Shown in pieces: positions 3,524 through 17,524 of a DNA stretch of 64,000 bases. The notes under the pieces were generated by a model. The model worked only from the letters and a program-made list of their open reading frames with translations. It was not told where the DNA came from and ran no database searches. Each line of letters opens with the position of its first letter. The stretch's first letter is position 1. This stretch comes from Terriglobales bacterium (GTDB lineage: Bacteria; Acidobacteriota; Terriglobia; Bryobacterales; Bryobacteraceae). The position numbers and the translations under genes were made by a program. Location of the stretch: assembly GCA_021372245.1 (NCBI GenBank), contig JAJFUV010000362.1, positions 1 to 64,000 of the forward strand, read 5' to 3'.

Positions 3524-5164
3524 TTAAGACGCCGGTTCCAACTCATCAACCGGGGTGCATTTTCTTGATCTTCTTCGAACACGCTTTTTGGGAGTCTCTT
3601 TTGAGTCATCTTCTCCCTTCATGACGCGCGCAAAGTCTTGTATTTCTTGGTACAGTTGGTTCCAACTGTTACTAGTGAAGGGCACCAGAGTTGATTCGTC
3701 GCGTGCAAAATCACCCAATGTGTTGAAGAGAAGCCCTAGTTGGGCGGTTCGAATGTTTCCGGCCGTGAATCCGACCGGAAATATCAAGCGTTGGAACCGG
3801 GAGCGGATCGAAGGCGAAAGAGAGTTCCACGTATCAAGGAGGGCATGGAGAGGCACCGCGATTTCCTGAAGGCGGCTGCGGATATCAGCCGTGCTGAAAG
3901 GGGCTTGCTTTGGTGTAGCTTCGATGGCCTGTTCTTTCTCAGCAAGGACTGATTTGTGATTATTGAATTCTTCATCTGAGATGAGGCGCTGCGACCTCAT
4001 GCGAATAAGTTCCTGAAGTTCTTGCTTCAGATGATTCAGGGTACTACGGGTGAGCGTTCGCTTCGAGCGCAAGGTCTTCTCGCGTCCTTCAGCCGATTTT
4101 GCCGCTACTTCTCCGAGCTTGTCCAGGAGTTCCGTCTTCGGAGCAATCAGAGGTAGGTACTCCTTGAATTCCCGATGTGCTTTTTCTACGGGAAGGCCTT
4201 TCCCGCGCAGACTGCAGTTGTCGTTGTGGCAGTGGTAGTAAGGGTACCGTTTGGATCGGCCGCGAGAGAAGCTGGCGGTCAAGTATTGGCTGCACCCGTT
4301 GCAGCGCACGAGTCCCCGTAGGGGGAACTCTTCCCGGTGCCTGTGATGCGGCATGCACCTGCTCCGCTTCCTAACGAGTTGCTGTACACCGGCGAATTCA
4401 TCACGTGAGACCATGGGCACGTGATGGCCTTGGTATTCCTCTCCGGACCATGGATCGATGAGGATTCCCGCGTAGTATGGATTGCGGAATAAGTTGTCAA
4501 TGGATTGGTCACCGAGTGGCACGCCTTTGCGGCTGACGATTCCCCAGCTTTCCATGAGCCTTCGCATTTCTGCTTTTGTGTAGACGCCAGTGGCGAACTG
4601 GTGCCAAGCTTTTTGTAGGAGTCCAAAGAGAGATTCGTCCGGCTCGTCGGGTCTGTTCTTCTTTTCCCGAGCCACATGAGCACTCTTGTATCCCAAGGGC
4701 GGCTTCCAGGGGAAGATCCCTTCCTGGATTTTGCGTCTCATGCCCTGTACAGTTCGGGCGGCTCGGATATCGTTGTCGAATTGGGCGAAGCCGGCCAGAA
4801 TGGTCTCCATGAGCTTGCCCTCGGGTTTTGTATCAATCGGCTCGGTAACGGACACGATATCCACTCCGTACCTCTGAAGGGTGGCCTTGACACTGAAGTG
4901 GTCAGCGACGTTCCGAGCGAAGCGGTCAACCTTCCAAACCAGGAGCGTATTCACCCGCCCCTTGTTTTCACGGCAAAACTCGATCAGCGAAAGGAGCTCC
5001 GTGCGGTCGGCGAATTTTGCCGATTCACCCTGCTCGACGAATACTCGCAGCACGTGAATGTTTCGAGCATGGGCATACTCCTCGCAGGCAAGCTGTTGCG
5101 ATTCTAAGCTGGTGCCTTCCACCTGCTCTCTTGACGACACACGGCAATAGATGACTGCATTCAT
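3524..5164 (-). CDS. Large serine recombinase (resolvase + recombinase + zinc ribbon)
   Basis: 546 aa from the ATG at 5164, chosen because it directly precedes the canonical start MNAVIYCRVSSREQ; the open frame extends 16 residues further. The resolvase domain has the catalytic Ser in YCRVSSREQ, and the WKVDRFARN and FAQFDNDIRAARTVQG motifs. Next comes the Recombinase domain (IFPWKPPLGYK onward), a zinc ribbon (CNGCSQYL ... CHNDNC, residues about 300-330) and a C-terminal coiled coil with basic residues. This is the architecture of integrases of phages and integrative elements, which join attP and attB via a covalent Ser intermediate. It lies next to an ATPase/XRE/RuvC module and is the likely integrase of that element. 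Confidence 0.9.
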   Translation of the reverse strand: MNAVIYCRVSSREQVEGTSLESQQLACEEYAHARNIHVLRVFVEQGESAKFADRTELLSLIEFCRENKGRVNTLLVWKVDRFARNVADHFSVKATLQRYGVDIVSVTEPIDTKPEGKLMETILAGFAQFDNDIRAARTVQGMRRKIQEGIFPWKPPLGYKSAHVAREKKNRPDEPDESLFGLLQKAWHQFATGVYTKAEMRRLMESWGIVSRKGVPLGDQSIDNLFRNPYYAGILIDPWSGEEYQGHHVPMVSRDEFAGVQQLVRKRSRCMPHHRHREEFPLRGLVRCNGCSQYLTASFSRGRSKRYPYYHCHNDNCSLRGKGLPVEKAHREFKEYLPLIAPKTELLDKLGEVAAKSAEGREKTLRSKRTLTRSTLNHLKQELQELIRMRSQRLISDEEFNNHKSVLAEKEQAIEATPKQAPFSTADIRSRLQEIAVPLHALLDTWNSLSPSIRSRFQRLIFPVGFTAGNIRTAQLGLLFNTLGDFARDESTLVPFTSNSWNQLYQEIQDFARVMKGEDDSKETPKKRVRRRSRKCTPVDELEPAS

Positions 5165-5237
5165 TGCATTGTAATAAGTGAATAGCGTGAACGAGGTCTC
5201 GTTCAGTTGCAAATACTAGCGCGGGGCTTTGAAACTG

Positions 5238-8324: not shown

Positions 8325-9356
8325 CTATCGGACCATCCTGTCTACAATCTTCTTTTGCGACTCCGGAACAAACTGCCGATAGACATCCAGTGTTGCGCTT
8401 GCCTTCGCGTGCCGCATCAAAGCCTGGGCATCTTTCACGTCCTCTCCGGCGAGCTTCAGCCACGTCGCGAAGGACCGTCGCAGCACCTGCCAGTTGACCC
8501 AACCGATGCCCAACTTTCGCGCCGCTGGCTTGATGTGCCGCACCAGGACGTTGTTATCCCTCACCGGCATACCCTTCACCGGCGACTGGAATACCAAATC
8601 TTCCGGACCAGCGGACTTCAGCGCCGGATACTTACGGGTCCCTCTGCCGGCTTTGACCATCACCATCAAGGTCTTCAACCGTTGTATGCATTCGATCACC
8701 GTGCGATTGATGGGCAGTTTGGCGTTACTCGCCTCGCTCTTCGATGGCCCCCAATCCCCACGGCAGTAACGCTCCTCAATGGTTATAGACTCATCGTGCA
8801 CATTTTTTTACCGTAAACCAACCAACTCGCTCACCCGCAAGCCCGTGTGCACGGCCACGTAAACCATCGTGGCGTATGGCTCCGAGATCATCTCCGCAAG
8901 TAGCGAGAACTGCGGTCGCGTAATCCAGGGCTTCATCTTCTTGCCCTTTCCCCGATGAGGCAAGGAAACGCCCTCAACCGGATTCTTGACCAACAAGCCG
9001 TACCGGACGGCAGATCGCAGCACGCTGGACAAGACATCTCGCACCTTGTCCATCGATTCGTATTCCAACTTCGTCTGCCGGAATCCTGAGATGTAGCGGT
9101 CCACCGTCAACACGCTGATGTCCCGCAAACACAAGCTTCCGAACTGCGGGATCAGATAATTGTTGAGGACGTTAGCGGCGAAAATGAAAACCAGCGAGTT
9201 CTTCAGGAGTGTAAGCGCCTGGGTGTCGGATACATCACGTTTACAAAGGCGGGGGACTACGACACCTTTGACACCGTGGTTGACGCCTGACCTAGGGACC
9301 CCAATCCCTATGCGGTGGACAGATTCATCCGGAAACAAATCAGTCAGCACAATCAA
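8325..9356 (-). pseudogene. Tyrosine recombinase/integrase interrupted by an in-frame stop
   Basis: Two minus-strand frames in the same phase are separated only by a TAA at 8808-8810. Reading through gives HTGLRVSELVGLR-stop-KNVHDESITIEERY, where relatives have Trp at the stop. The N-terminal half has the SAM-like core-binding domain and the first catalytic Arg (TGLRVSEL). The C-terminal half has WQVLRRSFATWL (box II Arg), LMRHAKASATLDVY and the nucleophile Tyr. The first 40 or so residues upstream of the core domain look scrambled. No functional single polypeptide is expected, although split halves could in principle be translated (GTG at 8801). Confidence 0.8.
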
Positions 9357-9651
9357 GACGAACTTCGGGAACTGCTGCGTTGAAGACAGCAGGGGGTGTT
9401 GGCTTCAGAAGTGCGTTCCGGCTGAGACTTGATCTGACACGGTTTATAGTTACCCAACACGAACATACGATGCACCTTTGCCTCCGGTCGGGCCCGGGCC
9501 ACCGGGAGCCAGATTAAAGGTTCCGGGTGAGGGATTACCAACCTGCAGAGTGGGAGAATTTCATCTGGCGTAGCCCGGGGAGCGAAGTCCTACCCTTCTG
9601 AATCCCACGCGCCGCCCGGCGAGTTCGAGCAAGGAACCAATCAACTACAGA
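9357..9651. other. Gap with no gene recognised
   Basis: Between the integrase pseudogene and the HipA-like gene. It probably contains the decayed 5' end of the integrase, but no frame here shows a recognisable motif. Confidence 0.5.
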
Positions 9652-10662
9652 TTAAGCTGAGCAACTGAATGCAGAAGACGTACGGCTACCCGCCACGACC
9701 TGATCGCAACGGCCTGGCAGGAAGTGGGCATGCTGGCATCTGAAATGTGACCCGGTGGGAACTGGTAGAGTCCATTCTTCGAAGGGGCTGTAAGCAGATG
9801 CTCGGAGAGCCTCGATCATGCGTGGCACAGATTTGCGTCTCTCCAGGAGTCGCCCAAGGAGGATTTCGAATGGTCGTGTTTCAATCTCCCATTCTGTAGG
9901 CACGAGGCGAACTAGAGACATGACGGCATGTTCGTCAACCGAGTCGATTGCCTCAAACCAAGGTTCAAAATCAGCCCAGGAACGAACAGCGCGATAGACA
10001 GCCTTGTCTCTATAAAGCCCGTACAGAGGAGCGTCCTCGAACGCCCAATGTTGACCACCGAAGGTATAGCCGTGGTCGATCATGCGGGCAAGGATACCCA
10101 TGTGACGAGGATGCGCAGACTGAATGCCTAGGTTAGTGCGGATATTCCCGCGAAAGAACACGGCCTGCCTGACATCAATATTCCCCAACCACTTGTCCAC
10201 TACAAGCATTCCGATGAAGTGGGACAAGTTGACGACCTGATCCAGCACCGTGGTAGGCAATAGGTCATAGACCGCGATTTTATTCGGATCCCCGGGATAA
10301 AGGGACCCAAAGTGATAGCCAGCGGGGACGGACTCCACCCTGTGGTGCAGCTCAATGCGAACGCCAGAATTACGTGAAAGCAGTTCGTCATCAACAAACA
10401 CAAGACTGAAATCGGCGGCAGAAAGGCCAAGGTGCCGTAGCAGAGCGGAAGCAGCCAACTCGTTCACTAGTGTGCGCTTCCCCTGCGGATTATTGAGGAA
10501 CTTCACCACGTGGTAGCACCCGTCGGAGGCGAACATGAGCTGCGACTGAGCACCGCCACGCATTCTTCTAAGTGCATTCACAGCCCTGATCCGAGGGCAG
10601 TGGTCAAGATTCACAAGGCCAGGAGGGTCAATCGGCCGCTTAAGTCGACGTTCCTTGTACAT
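9652..10662 (-). CDS. HipA_2-type protein kinase
   Basis: 336 aa, start supported by an AGGAG seven bases upstream of ATG 10662. The N-terminal motif RMRGGAQSQLMFASDGCYHV followed by VVKFLNNPQGKR is the glycine-rich/Lys segment of HipA-like kinases. VVDKWLGNIDVRQ and LARMIDHGYTFGG supply the catalytic and metal-binding Asp-containing loops. The C-terminal 25 residues are low-complexity and probably drifted. HipA relatives phosphorylate translation factors or other proteins; the target of this family is unknown. It lies downstream of a sigma-70-like gene on the same strand, 125 bases apart, with no HipB-like antitoxin visible. Confidence 0.75.
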   Translation of the reverse strand: MYKERRLKRPIDPPGLVNLDHCPRIRAVNALRRMRGGAQSQLMFASDGCYHVVKFLNNPQGKRTLVNELAASALLRHLGLSAADFSLVFVDDELLSRNSGVRIELHHRVESVPAGYHFGSLYPGDPNKIAVYDLLPTTVLDQVVNLSHFIGMLVVDKWLGNIDVRQAVFFRGNIRTNLGIQSAHPRHMGILARMIDHGYTFGGQHWAFEDAPLYGLYRDKAVYRAVRSWADFEPWFEAIDSVDEHAVMSLVRLVPTEWEIETRPFEILLGRLLERRKSVPRMIEALRASAYSPFEEWTLPVPTGSHFRCQHAHFLPGRCDQVVAGSRTSSAFSCSA

Positions 10663-14283: not shown

Positions 14284-14366
14284 AGAAGAGAATAAAAAGA
14301 GAATATCCACAAACGAATCGACCCGGCGCGATCAGCAGCAAGGGATTTGTCGTCAGAGAGGGAAAA

Positions 14367-14504
14367 ATGATAAACACCATGGCCAAAGATGACCTGAGGG
14401 AACACCCACCGCATCCACCACATCCTCCGCACCCGCCACATCCACCGCATCCGCCTGGGCCACCGGACCCACCCAAGCCGCCCAAGGATCGCCCAGTGGG
14501 TTGA
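14367..14504 (+). CDS. Tiny His-Pro-Pro repeat peptide ending in Gly, first gene of an E2-E1/JAB operon
   Basis: 45 aa from ATG 14367 (purine-rich AGAGGGAAAA just upstream; ATG 14379 is an alternative). Residues 1-12 are polar (MINTMAKDDLRE); residues 13-30 are six perfect His-Pro-Pro repeats; residues 31-45 are GPPDPPKPPKDRPVG. It cannot form a beta-grasp fold and is expected to be an extended polyproline-type tail. Its stop codon overlaps the TTG start of the E2-E1 gene (TTGA), a strong sign that it is translated and coupled. The C-terminal Val-Gly resembles the small C-terminal residues that E1-like enzymes adenylate. It could be a conjugated modifier, a substrate or a tether. The function is not known to me. 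Confidence 0.7.
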   Translation: MINTMAKDDLREHPPHPPHPPHPPHPPHPPGPPDPPKPPKDRPVG

Positions 14505-16174
14505 CGCGGTTGGAACCTTGGTACAAGCGGTTACCTGAACGCCTCAACTACGAGCTCGAAGAGCTCCGTAGAGCTGGCATTGCCTTCGCACAGGACCAGG
14601 AAGCGCTGACGTGCGGAAAAATCCGTTTGACTGTCAATACAGCGTTCGACGGACAAGACTTGGCTCTCGTCGTCGAGTTCCCGGATTTTTACCCGTACTT
14701 CCGTTTCGAAGTCGCCGCGCCATCGCTCGATCTGCCGCGCCACCAACACCCCGTGAGTAAGTACCTCTGCCTGATTGGCCGCGCTACGCGCAACTGGAAG
14801 CCGAGCGACACCCTCGCAGCATTCATCGCGCAGCGCGTCCCGGCAACCGTTGCAGCGGCAAGCGGCGACCCTAGCGTTTCTGAGGAGCCTCAGGGCGAAC
14901 CGGCGACCGACTACTTCCGCTACGAAGCGAACAGCATCGTCCTCGTCGATACTGACTGTCGCGTGCCAGCCGGAATAGGTCGTGGACAACTGCTCTTGGG
15001 ACTTGAACAGGAAGATCTCACCAAAGCTCCACTCCGAGGGGCTGTTCTGCAAGTCCTGAATGGCGACGGCGAAACCTTATACAGCGCAGATCCTCGATTG
15101 GAGGCGCTCTACCAACATCGCTGGAAGATCCCTTGGTTTCGCCTGGCCGCGCCCCCACCCTGCGGTGACGCGAAAGAGGCGATGGCGGCGTTGCATGCTG
15201 CGTTTCCAAGTACGACGAACGCGTGGACGAAATACAAGGACAGCAAATCCAGTATTATCGGTGTCCTCTGTCCCGAAGAAGTCCAGTTCGGCACGGTGTC
15301 GGACGCGTGGGTCTTCGTCGTCCAAGTCCAAGTCGGCAAACGAAGCATCGGACCGTACTTTGCGCGAGCTGGCAGAGCAGGAATCGTGGACTTGGCATCC
15401 CGCATCCCCGAACTGCACGCTCTACGAGACAAGAAGATTGGCATCGTCGGGCTCGGGTGCGTCGGGGCCCCCAGCGCCTTGCACCTCGCACGTGCCGGCG
15501 TCGGCGAACTCCGGCTCATCGACCACGACTACATCGACCCTGGCACCGTCGTCCGGTGGCCCTTCGGTTTCCGCACCGCCGGGTGGCAGAAGGTGACCGT
15601 CGTTAAGGACTTCATCACACACCACTATCCATTCACGAGCGTCAAGGCTTGGGATCATCGGATCGGCGACCCCACCCTCGATGACGCGCGCGCCATGACC
15701 GAGTTCTTCGACGGGCTAGACCTGGTCTACGACGCGAGCACTGAGGAGGGCATCAACCACCTCCTCTCCGACTTGGCATGGGAGCGACGCATCACGTACG
15801 TCGTCATCTCAACAACGACCGGCGCTTGGGGCGGACGCGTCGTCCGCATCAAACCAGGCAGTACGCAGGGATGCTGGCAGTGCATGCTCCACGCAACGGA
15901 AGACAACCAATTGCCCACCCCACCAAGCAGCGGGGAGGGCATTCAGCCGATGGGCTGCGCCAACCCCACGTACGCAGCTGCAGGCTTCGACACGGAAGAG
16001 GTCGCACTCATGGGCGTACGCGCGGCTACAACTGCGCTGGCAACAACGTACCCGAACATCCCAGGAGACGTGGGCATCCTCGTCTTCCGCCACAATGATC
16101 CGGTAATTGTGTCACCACAGTGGCAATGGCACACACTCGCACGACACCCCCGGTGTCAACACACCCATACATGA
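14501..16174 (+). CDS. E2-E1 fusion (UBC-like domain + ThiF adenylation domain, Cap2-like)
   Basis: 557 aa from TTG 14501. Residues about 10-115 form an E2/UBC-like domain: FPDFYPYFRFEV, then HQHP and the likely catalytic Cys90 in KYLCLIG. Residues about 300-557 form a ThiF/E1 domain: nucleotide-binding GLGCVG (317-322) with acidic residues in LIDHDYIDP, a Zn-like C458-x2-C461, and GCANPTYAAAGFD, in which Cys486 is the likely E1 thioester Cys. E2-E1 fusions of this kind (Cap2 in type II CBASS, and relatives in Bil/Bub-type operons) adenylate a C-terminal carboxyl and pass it to a target. No CD-NTase or ubiquitin-like gene is adjacent; the upstream partner is the His-Pro-Pro peptide, the downstream one a JAB peptidase. 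Cytosolic. Confidence 0.85.
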   Translation: MTRLEPWYKRLPERLNYELEELRRAGIAFAQDQEALTCGKIRLTVNTAFDGQDLALVVEFPDFYPYFRFEVAAPSLDLPRHQHPVSKYLCLIGRATRNWKPSDTLAAFIAQRVPATVAAASGDPSVSEEPQGEPATDYFRYEANSIVLVDTDCRVPAGIGRGQLLLGLEQEDLTKAPLRGAVLQVLNGDGETLYSADPRLEALYQHRWKIPWFRLAAPPPCGDAKEAMAALHAAFPSTTNAWTKYKDSKSSIIGVLCPEEVQFGTVSDAWVFVVQVQVGKRSIGPYFARAGRAGIVDLASRIPELHALRDKKIGIVGLGCVGAPSALHLARAGVGELRLIDHDYIDPGTVVRWPFGFRTAGWQKVTVVKDFITHHYPFTSVKAWDHRIGDPTLDDARAMTEFFDGLDLVYDASTEEGINHLLSDLAWERRITYVVISTTTGAWGGRVVRIKPGSTQGCWQCMLHATEDNQLPTPPSSGEGIQPMGCANPTYAAAGFDTEEVALMGVRAATTALATTYPNIPGDVGILVFRHNDPVIVSPQWQWHTLARHPRCQHTHT

Positions 16175-16641
16175 CAGCATGGGTGGCCGAATCCGTGCTG
16201 CAGACGATGAGGAACGAAGCCCATCGACGTTTCCCCGTCGAGTCCGGCGGCGTCCTCATCGGCTACTGGGCCAAACAACAGGTCATCATCGTCGCGGCAA
16301 CCGCGCCCGGACCAGACGCGCATCACACGAGTGCAAGATACGTCCCGGACCAAGCACACGACGAACAACAAGTCGCGCAGGCCTACAACGCATCCAGACG
16401 ACGGTACATCTACTTGGGCGACTGGCACACGCATCCGAACCAAGACCCGTACCTCAGTGAGGACGACTGCCGCACCCTCGCACACATCGCCGCGCATGGG
16501 CCAGCACGTGCAACCGTCCCAATCATGATCGTCCTCGGCGGCGGCCCCAGCGACTGGTACGCCAAGGTATGGCGTTACCGCCACGGACGCTCGCGCCCAA
16601 TGCGGCTACGACTGTACGAGAAAGCCGGAGAGCCTTGGTAG
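16171..16641 (+). CDS. JAB/JAMM deconjugating peptidase (Cap3-like)
   Basis: 156 aa from ATG 16171, which overlaps the E2-E1 stop (ATGA); the open frame extends upstream to 16120. The JAMM zinc site is complete: Glu24 in VESGGVLIGYW, H86-x-H88 in GDWHTHPNQDPYLSEDD, then Ser96 and Asp99. Such metallopeptidases cut isopeptide or peptide bonds after a C-terminal Gly or Ala of ubiquitin-like proteins and, in Cap3, of CD-NTases. The expected role is to process or reverse the conjugation made by the neighbouring E2-E1 protein. The next gene is on the opposite strand and ends three bases later. Confidence 0.88.
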   Translation: MTAWVAESVLQTMRNEAHRRFPVESGGVLIGYWAKQQVIIVAATAPGPDAHHTSARYVPDQAHDEQQVAQAYNASRRRYIYLGDWHTHPNQDPYLSEDDCRTLAHIAAHGPARATVPIMIVLGGGPSDWYAKVWRYRHGRSRPMRLRLYEKAGEPW

Positions 16642-16643
16642 CC

Positions 16644-17051
16644 CTATGAACTGCAAATGGAGTCAAGGACGTGTCGCTTCCTTTCACCGCGTTCCCGCCG
16701 GGCAAGCGTGCTTGGGTCAACGCCCAGGCGTTTCGCCATTTCTTTTTGCGAGACGCCCTGAATCTTTCGAGCTTGTACCAGCTGGCCAGCCGGTGTTCGA
16801 GGTTCAGGAAGGGGGTCGTGGCCGAGGAATCCGATAATGGCCGGCCAGTGTCGGAAGGCGGGGGTGGTTGCGTTGTTTTCCCAGTTCCAAATGGATGATT
16901 CCACGACGCCGAGCCTTTGGGCGACATCGCTTTGGAGCAGCTGAAGATCAAGTCTCCGCTTCCGAATGTGGTCGCCCAGTGTTTTCAGTGCCTTGGGATA
17001 GGCATGGGAAAGAGGCCTTTGAGTCCGCAGGTGTACTTGGCAAAAAGGCAA
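16644..17051 (-). CDS. Tandem XRE helix-turn-helix protein
   Basis: Up to 135 aa. It contains two HTH units: TLGDHIRKRRLDLQLLQSDV (with RLGVVESSIWNWENN) and LVQARKIQGVSQKEMAKRLGVDPSTLARRERGE. This is a widespread small bacterial family that normally starts close to YPKxPKTLGDH. The only available start here is TTG 17051, which lies at the junction with the yifB fragment, so the first 18 or so residues are probably not native. The C-terminus after the second HTH (KRHVLDSICSS) also departs from the family. It is convergent with the JAB gene. It may be partly decayed. Confidence 0.65.
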   Translation of the reverse strand: MPFCQVHLRTQRPLSHAYPKALKTLGDHIRKRRLDLQLLQSDVAQRLGVVESSIWNWENNATTPAFRHWPAIIGFLGHDPLPEPRTPAGQLVQARKIQGVSQKEMAKRLGVDPSTLARRERGERKRHVLDSICSS

Positions 17052-17054
17052 CGC

Positions 17055-17524
17055 GGGGGTGCCGGTGCGGGTTTTACGGCGACGCCACGCACGAGTGCCG
17101 CTGCACGGGAGGGGAGATCCAACGGTACCTGGGCAAGATCAGCGGACCGTTGCTTGACCGCATCGACCTGCACATCGAGGTGCCGGCCGTCCCCTACGCC
17201 GAGCTGCGCGGCAAGGACGGCGGCGACACCAGCGCTGAGATTCGCGCGCGTGTGGAGGCGGCGCGCCACATCCAGCAGCGGCGTGGCTTTTACAATGCGC
17301 AGATTCCCCACGCCCCGCTGCGGAAGTTGTGCGCCCTGGACGATGCCGGCGAGCGCACCCTGGAACTGGCCGTCCGGCGCATGGGCCTGAGCGCCCGGGC
17401 CCACGACCGCATCCTTAAGGTAGCCCGCACCATCGCGGACCTGGGCAGCACCGAAAACGTGAGCGCGAAGCACGTGGCCGAGGCTGTGCAGTACCGCAGC
17501 CTCGACCGGACCTACATGATTTGA
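17055..17524 (+). pseudogene. yifB: Truncated yifB/comM (Mg-chelatase-like AAA+), 3' part only
   Basis: Translation from about 17058 reads CRCGFYGDATHECRCTGGEI, then QRYLGKISGPLLDRIDLHIEV, LRKLCALDDAGERTLELAVR and AHDRILKVARTIADLG. This is the conserved C-terminal third of YifB/ComM, a hexameric helicase for branch migration in transformation. The full-length protein is about 500 aa with an N-terminal Lon-like domain and a Walker A motif; both are missing, and homology starts abruptly at the zinc-binding loop (NPCPCG in relatives). The upstream sequence belongs to another gene on the other strand. The breakpoint marks a boundary of the accessory block. Confidence 0.85.

Follow-up and report, generated by a model that had tools for sequence, protein, structure and literature searches.

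What does a bacterial E2-E1 enzyme carry when the gene directly ahead of it encodes only a short, Pro-rich peptide? The question is raised by an operon in the window, by which we mean the whole 64,000-nucleotide stretch analysed here. The peptide gene (14367..14504, + strand) translates to the 45-aa product MINTMAKDDLREHPPHPPHPPHPPHPPHPPGPPDPPKPPKDRPVG, which contains six HPP units and has the C-terminus KDRPVG-COOH, its final residues being Pro-Val-Gly; this is the proposed conjugated peptide. A Shine-Dalgarno-like GAGG (14358..14361, +) was located 5 nt 5' of its ATG in a start/Shine-Dalgarno scan. The original prediction, made from the DNA alone, held that an HPP peptide ending in Gly precedes an E2-E1/JAB pair and that its stop codon overlaps the enzyme start. 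Translation and domain searches confirm the first point, and the second is borne out by the TGA at 14502-14504 and the TTG start at 14501 of the 557-aa E2-E1 gene. Our principal reading, to which we assign a probability of roughly 0.68, is a three-gene reversible ubiquitin-like system that conjugates a Pro-rich peptide of ~40–60 aa, which is probably disordered and has (R/K)-x-Val-Gly at its end. The chemistry in this reading is inferred.

The enzymes of the operon carry the residues that such a system would use. The E2-E1 fusion (14501..16174, +) matches ThiF with E=1.3e-22 and Prok-E2_B with E=7e-5, the latter under the Pfam cut-off for the window member; Prok-E2_B is nonetheless matched by 33/55 family members at E<=0.01, with a best value of 4e-39. 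Cys90 of the E2 part (codon 14768..14770, +) and Cys486 of the E1 part (codon 15956..15958, +, in a GC..PTFTGA motif), which had been singled out as the key cysteines from the window sequence, are both invariant across 55 aligned homologs, as is His81. Arg301, Gly317, Gly319, Gly322, Asp343, Arg352, Lys364 and Asp411 are likewise invariant, several of them being ATP-site positions. An AlphaFold2 model of the fusion (mean pLDDT 90.5) shows a Cap2-like architecture: the top Foldseek match is Cap2 (7to3) over the whole chain (E=2.7e-25, TM 0.64, 606 columns), and full-length Cap2 chains rank first, followed by UBA5, ThiF, BubCD and MccB. VIA-align groups the E1 half with UBA5, MoeB and ThiF (Z 26–28). 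Profile searches with the sequence also rank Cap2 first among relatives of solved structure (5.9e-22), and they match the E2 part to UBE2L3.

The third gene encodes a JAB/JAMM peptidase (16171..16641, +; Prok-JAB E=1.8e-14). It probably starts with the ATG at 16171, which forms an ATGA overlap with the stop of E2-E1; an alternative start, the upstream GTG at 16120, would give a longer 173-aa ORF. A JAB gene is found in 69 of 71 loci, and 68 of the 69 family JABs have the JAMM motif, the remaining one (L056) being an alignment truncated before the end of the motif. The two Halomonas loci L028 and L075 have the peptide (tail HREVG) and E2-E1, and an adjacent JAB is absent.

The same short ORF accompanies the enzyme in almost every homologous locus. 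A tblastn search against plasmids yielded 12 records with full-length E2-E1 relatives (29–35% identity), and a short Pro-rich ORF lies directly 5' of E2-E1 in all nine plasmid operons inspected, ending in VG, or with GQQ after the V in Hymenobacter. Existing annotation misses almost all of the family: only one of these nine operons has the peptide called, and in Sphingobium the annotated enzyme start extends over it. Homologs were gathered with E1-domain motif patterns. The divergence of alignment A1 ruled it out as a seed for scanning genomes, and five of its members (A2) took its place. The profile-seeded scan of GTDB species genomes found 61 loci. Family loci occur in Bacteroidota, Alpha- and Gammaproteobacteria, Actinomycetota, KSB1 and Planctomycetota. 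Examining the upstream gene of E2-E1 homologs for short Pro-rich ORFs ending in Gly, the check suggested with the original prediction, was strongly positive, and the prediction withstood this attempt to refute it: such an ORF is immediately 5' of E2-E1 in 67 of 70 homologous loci. Of the remaining three, L069 and L071 are E1 fragments that have lost the E2 part, and L079 has a frameshifted peptide. Because the collection was seeded on the E1 domain, divergent E2-E1 members without a peptide could have been missed.

Chance does not account for the pattern. Six-frame translation of the 70 loci gave 9,495 ORFs of at least 35 aa, and none outside the slot upstream of E2-E1 was both Pro-rich and VG-ending; in the same test, 67/70 slot ORFs were VG-ending and 65/70 exceeded the Pro-rich cut. 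Additional RPVG-coding sites in the window's own genome were at chance level (7 vs 7 in a reversed control). Clustering of ORFs around the loci returned a conserved unit of peptide, E2-E1 and JAB, with no further conserved partner gene, and dereplication at 90% E2-E1 identity left 46 distinct peptide/E2-E1 pairs. Few members of the window's phylum have the system, which among 396 genomes was seen only in the window genome and one other (G227); a locus from this phylum found with a different query (L081) encodes the peptide MSSEKKPEHPNHPPHPEHPPKPDVPPGPPDPPRPPKHRPVG. Close relatives of the window genome gave just MoeB/ThiF-like matches, and neither the window protein nor alignment A1 retrieved relatives in scans of viral contigs. 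In an E1-domain tree most CBASS enzymes fall apart from the family, and two long-branch CBASS rows lie beside the actinobacterial members, so that monophyly of the family is not shown. Given its presence 5' of E2-E1/JAB in at least four phyla, the peptide is probably a protein tag of a new kind, attached by E2-E1 to other molecules.

What is conserved in the peptide is its C-terminus. The median family peptide has 49 aa, with 36.5% Pro, 14% Gly and 8% His, and the repeat units vary (HPP, EHP, NPPG, RPDNPG), which makes the HPP run incidental. The six HPP repeats first noted are thus present in the window peptide but are not conserved in the family, whereas the (R/K)xVG C-terminus is. The window's units, each read with its own codon triplet, do not form a simple DNA microsatellite, as Tandem Repeats Finder reports only a degenerate 9/18-bp array with 73–83% matches. 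Val-Gly was found in 67/67 peptides scored, preceded by P at -3 in 45 of 67 and by R (59), K (6) or G (2) at -4, a basic residue in 65/67. In the window this R-P-V-G motif, the proposed E1 recognition and activation tail, is encoded by 14490..14501 (+). Its Val and Gly each use all four codons across the family; this synonymous variation places the constraint on protein, and the possibility that the tail is a ribosome-binding site for E2-E1 was rejected on this ground. Selection on the reading frame is directly observed, with a pooled pN/pS of related pairs of 0.19 in frame, whereas the two alternative frames give 2.9 and 2.6. Peptides resemble one another in step with the identity of their E2-E1 proteins, both for the whole peptide (Mantel r=0.81, 0/2000 permutations) and for its last eight residues (r=0.57, 0/2000 permutations).

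The prediction that the peptide cannot adopt a beta-grasp fold is in line with the family composition, although fold was not measured, and disorder is probable from composition alone. Pfam and NCBIfam scans of the family peptides, and PADLOC for the window peptide, gave no match. The peptides of five Bradyrhizobium loci (L029, L030, L037, L060 and L066) are strikingly His-rich (HHDHHEHEKHHH) ahead of an RRVG tail, for which metal binding is possible. Separately, copper or cadmium genes lie near the Hymenobacter and Arthrobacter FB24 operons.

Two kinds of variant inform on the tail. In 7/67 peptides one or two residues follow the Gly (GQQ twice, GLL, GR, GQG, GQ and GAA), extensions that may be likened to those of ubiquitin-like precursors. 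In two Hymenobacter loci (L023:2992-3474 and L024:1602-2090), the slot encodes a 160–162-aa protein in which two DUF1508 (YegP-like) stretches are accompanied by a linker that ends in PPKDRQVG or PGDRPVG. As the tail caps a DUF1508 protein here, it is the common element, with an exchangeable part before it, which argues against a leader peptide or a ribosomally synthesized and post-translationally modified peptide (RiPP).

The content of the same slot in control E2-E1 operons bears on which molecule is activated. There it holds a cyclase, or in L094 a metallo-beta-lactamase (MBL)-like ORF, ending in Gly or Ala (...PKGFG, ...DTPQG, ...PGGFA, ...GGRHA, ...GGRFG, ...DSRYA, ...NSDYA and ...TGHYA), and a Pro-rich VG ORF was absent from all control operons scanned. 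Since control slots hold Gly/Ala-ending proteins and the CBASS cyclase is activated through its C-terminal Gly, the slot predicts the activated group, here the peptide. By analogy, this comparison with CBASS and 6A-MBL operons favours the peptide as the conjugated group, a role that remains unproven.

From these data we propose the following sequence of events. The peptide would be made first, translationally coupled to E2-E1, as the sequence evidence indicates. In members with extensions, JAB would trim the one or two extra residues and expose the Gly. The E1 would then adenylate the Gly carboxylate, recognizing the Val-Gly tail and the basic -4 residue, and load Cys486; we infer this adenylation from the conserved catalytic residues and the likeness to Cap2 and ThiF. 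The peptide would pass to Cys90 of the E2 and then to the amine of an unidentified target, and the conjugate may finally be cleaved by JAB, an inference from Cap3. Gene order and coupling are directly observed; the adenylation, the E1 and E2 thioesters, the isopeptide conjugates and the trimming or removal by JAB are inferred, without biochemical data. A Lys within the first ten residues, present in 51/67 peptides, could permit chains, but two peptides are without any Lys.

The alternative that survives best is a RiPP-type precursor, in which adenylation of the peptide C-terminus by the E1-like enzyme, like that of MccA by MccB, yields a modified peptide or toxin, and no protein is conjugated. 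MccB is among the structure and sequence matches of E2-E1, a tiny peptide gene just ahead of an E1-like adenylating enzyme is the microcin C layout, and a strongly conserved peptide tail would suit such a product. MccA, however, is a heptapeptide ending in Asn, and MccB has no E2 and JAB partners; the family keeps the E1 Cys, the E2 Cys and JAB, and these invariant cysteines, together with a JAB gene in 69/71 loci, are suited to transfer and deconjugation. The loci conserve neither an exporter nor another tailoring gene, and the tail is borne by a DUF1508 protein in two loci. We therefore think a RiPP unlikely.

Translational coupling allows a different account, namely that the ORF is a regulatory leader whose polyproline and C-terminal motif stall or couple ribosomes and so control E2-E1, with no function for the peptide itself. 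Polyproline can stall ribosomes, and overlap or close coupling of stop and start is seen at nearly all loci (spacing from -3 to +33 nt, except at two loci with uncertain starts). But Val-Gly stays C-terminal whatever the stop codon or the spacing, some members continue past it with unrelated residues, and two loci have a 160-aa DUF1508 fusion in place of the short peptide. The operon would then also lack a substrate for its E1, and a leader seems to us quite improbable.

Conservation of the tail would equally suit binding without chemistry. A non-covalent partner or pseudo-substrate occupying the E1 adenylation groove could keep E2-E1 inactive or guide it to targets, the conjugated protein being encoded elsewhere, and the operon itself encodes no target. 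Yet a free C-terminal Gly is precisely what E1 enzymes activate, and catalysis better fits both the precursor-like extensions (7/67) and the Gly/Ala rule of the CBASS slot, so that we also hold this explanation to be improbable. Finally, the idea that the peptide is an acceptor onto which something else is conjugated draws on the frequent N-terminal Lys but is very improbable, as two peptides lack Lys entirely, conservation falls on the C-terminus and not on the surroundings of a Lys, and the operon has no other conserved modifier candidate.

Integrases, LuxR pairs and M78 peptidases occur among the neighbours of the loci, and several copies are plasmid-borne. In Alteromonas (L062:1589-2446) a CapP-type M78 peptidase lies immediately 5' of the peptide gene, as with CBASS regulators; GajA is downstream in one Sphingobium locus (L032) and an AbiEi-like gene occurs in another locus (L064). 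These neighbours suggest a defence- or mobile-element-associated role, but the evidence is weak and scattered and does not prove it. A RES/Xre toxin-antitoxin pair lies divergently upstream in Sphingobium and Ensifer loci (L018:980-2067, and similarly in L045, L047, L048, L054 and L055). In the window, a HipA-like kinase (9652-10662, -; HipA_2, 1.5e-8) is upstream of the operon, and two recombinase genes are found to its left, one for a large serine recombinase and the other a broken tyrosine integrase (3524-5215, -, and 8325-9404, -). Just 3' of the operon is a C-terminal ComM/Mg-chelatase remnant (16868-17524, +; PF13335, 3.4e-31), the N-terminal part of which was not found in the window by motif scan; the operon may sit in an island inserted into comM.

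The known cargo of E1/E2 cascades is a beta-grasp modifier or, for CBASS, an entire enzyme attached through its tail. In the present family the carried group is apparently cut down to a free 40–60-aa Pro-rich tail, which tests how little a modifier needs. With its three small genes, the operon allows a direct test of this question, and it provides a compact module for orthogonal tagging whose recognition tail is defined. That disordered Pro-rich modifiers are widespread, matured, activated and conjugated by E1/E2 to phage or cellular targets, with JAB taking them off again, a ubiquitin-style tagging without the ubiquitin fold, is a broader proposal to which we give even odds. No published description of such a peptide was found in CC-licensed PMC papers; an earlier report elsewhere is not excluded.

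Among known systems, Pup is a short disordered modifier attached through its C-terminus, and the family peptide is similarly short, disordered by its composition and, as proposed, attached C-terminally, with no sequence relation claimed. Pup ends in Gly-Gly-Glu/Gln and its ligase is glutamine-synthetase-like, not E1/E2; a GGE or GGQ ending was found in 0/67 peptides, and PafA/Dop is not in the conserved unit, where the only partners are E2-E1 and JAB. Ubiquitin-like proteins share with the family a conserved C-terminal Gly, sometimes followed by a precursor extension. Bub/Bil and rows 6d and 6e of the Iyer 2006 table share the E1, E2 and JAB chemistry, and BubCD is among the structure matches, but their modifiers are beta-grasp Ubl proteins, none of which was found in the family loci.

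The 6A-MBL systems (Iyer 2006 row 6a; NCBIfam cap2_3) have related E2, E1 and JAB parts, and in the control locus L094 the gene ahead of E2-E1 is an MBL-like ORF with a terminal Ala. They differ in having a single E2-E1-JAB chain, whereas the family has a separate JAB gene and a peptide instead of the metallo-beta-lactamase. The window E2-E1 scores 66 bits with cap2_3 vs a cut-off of 320, and identity with 6A-MBL was rejected because JAB is separate and no MBL is in the conserved unit. Type 6c (Metal_CEHH) was also rejected: PF14455 on pNGR234a is at 395.7 kb and the operon at 252 kb, 144 kb apart, and PF14455 is absent from the Arthrobacter and Hymenobacter plasmids. The Iyer 2006 table enters NGR234a and 'Asp.' under 6b, from which we infer that the E2-E1/JAB genes were possibly noticed at that time, but not the peptide.

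The closest comparison is with type II CBASS, in which the cyclase is linked through its C-terminal Gly to Cap2 as a thioester and is conjugated, and Cap3 cuts after the Gly (PMC10097602); reversible conjugation and scarless release have also been demonstrated (PMC11153139). The modelled E2-E1 matches Cap2 over the whole chain and has both cysteines, the JAB gene lies downstream like Cap3, and in both systems the gene directly upstream encodes a protein with a C-terminal Gly/Ala on a flexible tail. The family unit nevertheless has no CD-NTase, SAVED or other effector: CBASS cyclase queries did not match any of 131 neighbour ORFs, PADLOC reported a cyclase in one of the neighbour ORFs, and no effector (phospholipase, SAVED and the like) is conserved among them. 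The conserved tail is also longer, (R/K)xVG, while CBASS cyclases vary in the residues before the last. With a conserved unit that lacks cyclase and effector, the system is not CBASS, although by inferred chemistry it works like Cap2/Cap3: where CBASS places a cyclase ending in Gly or Ala, the family has a free ~40–60-aa Pro-rich peptide.
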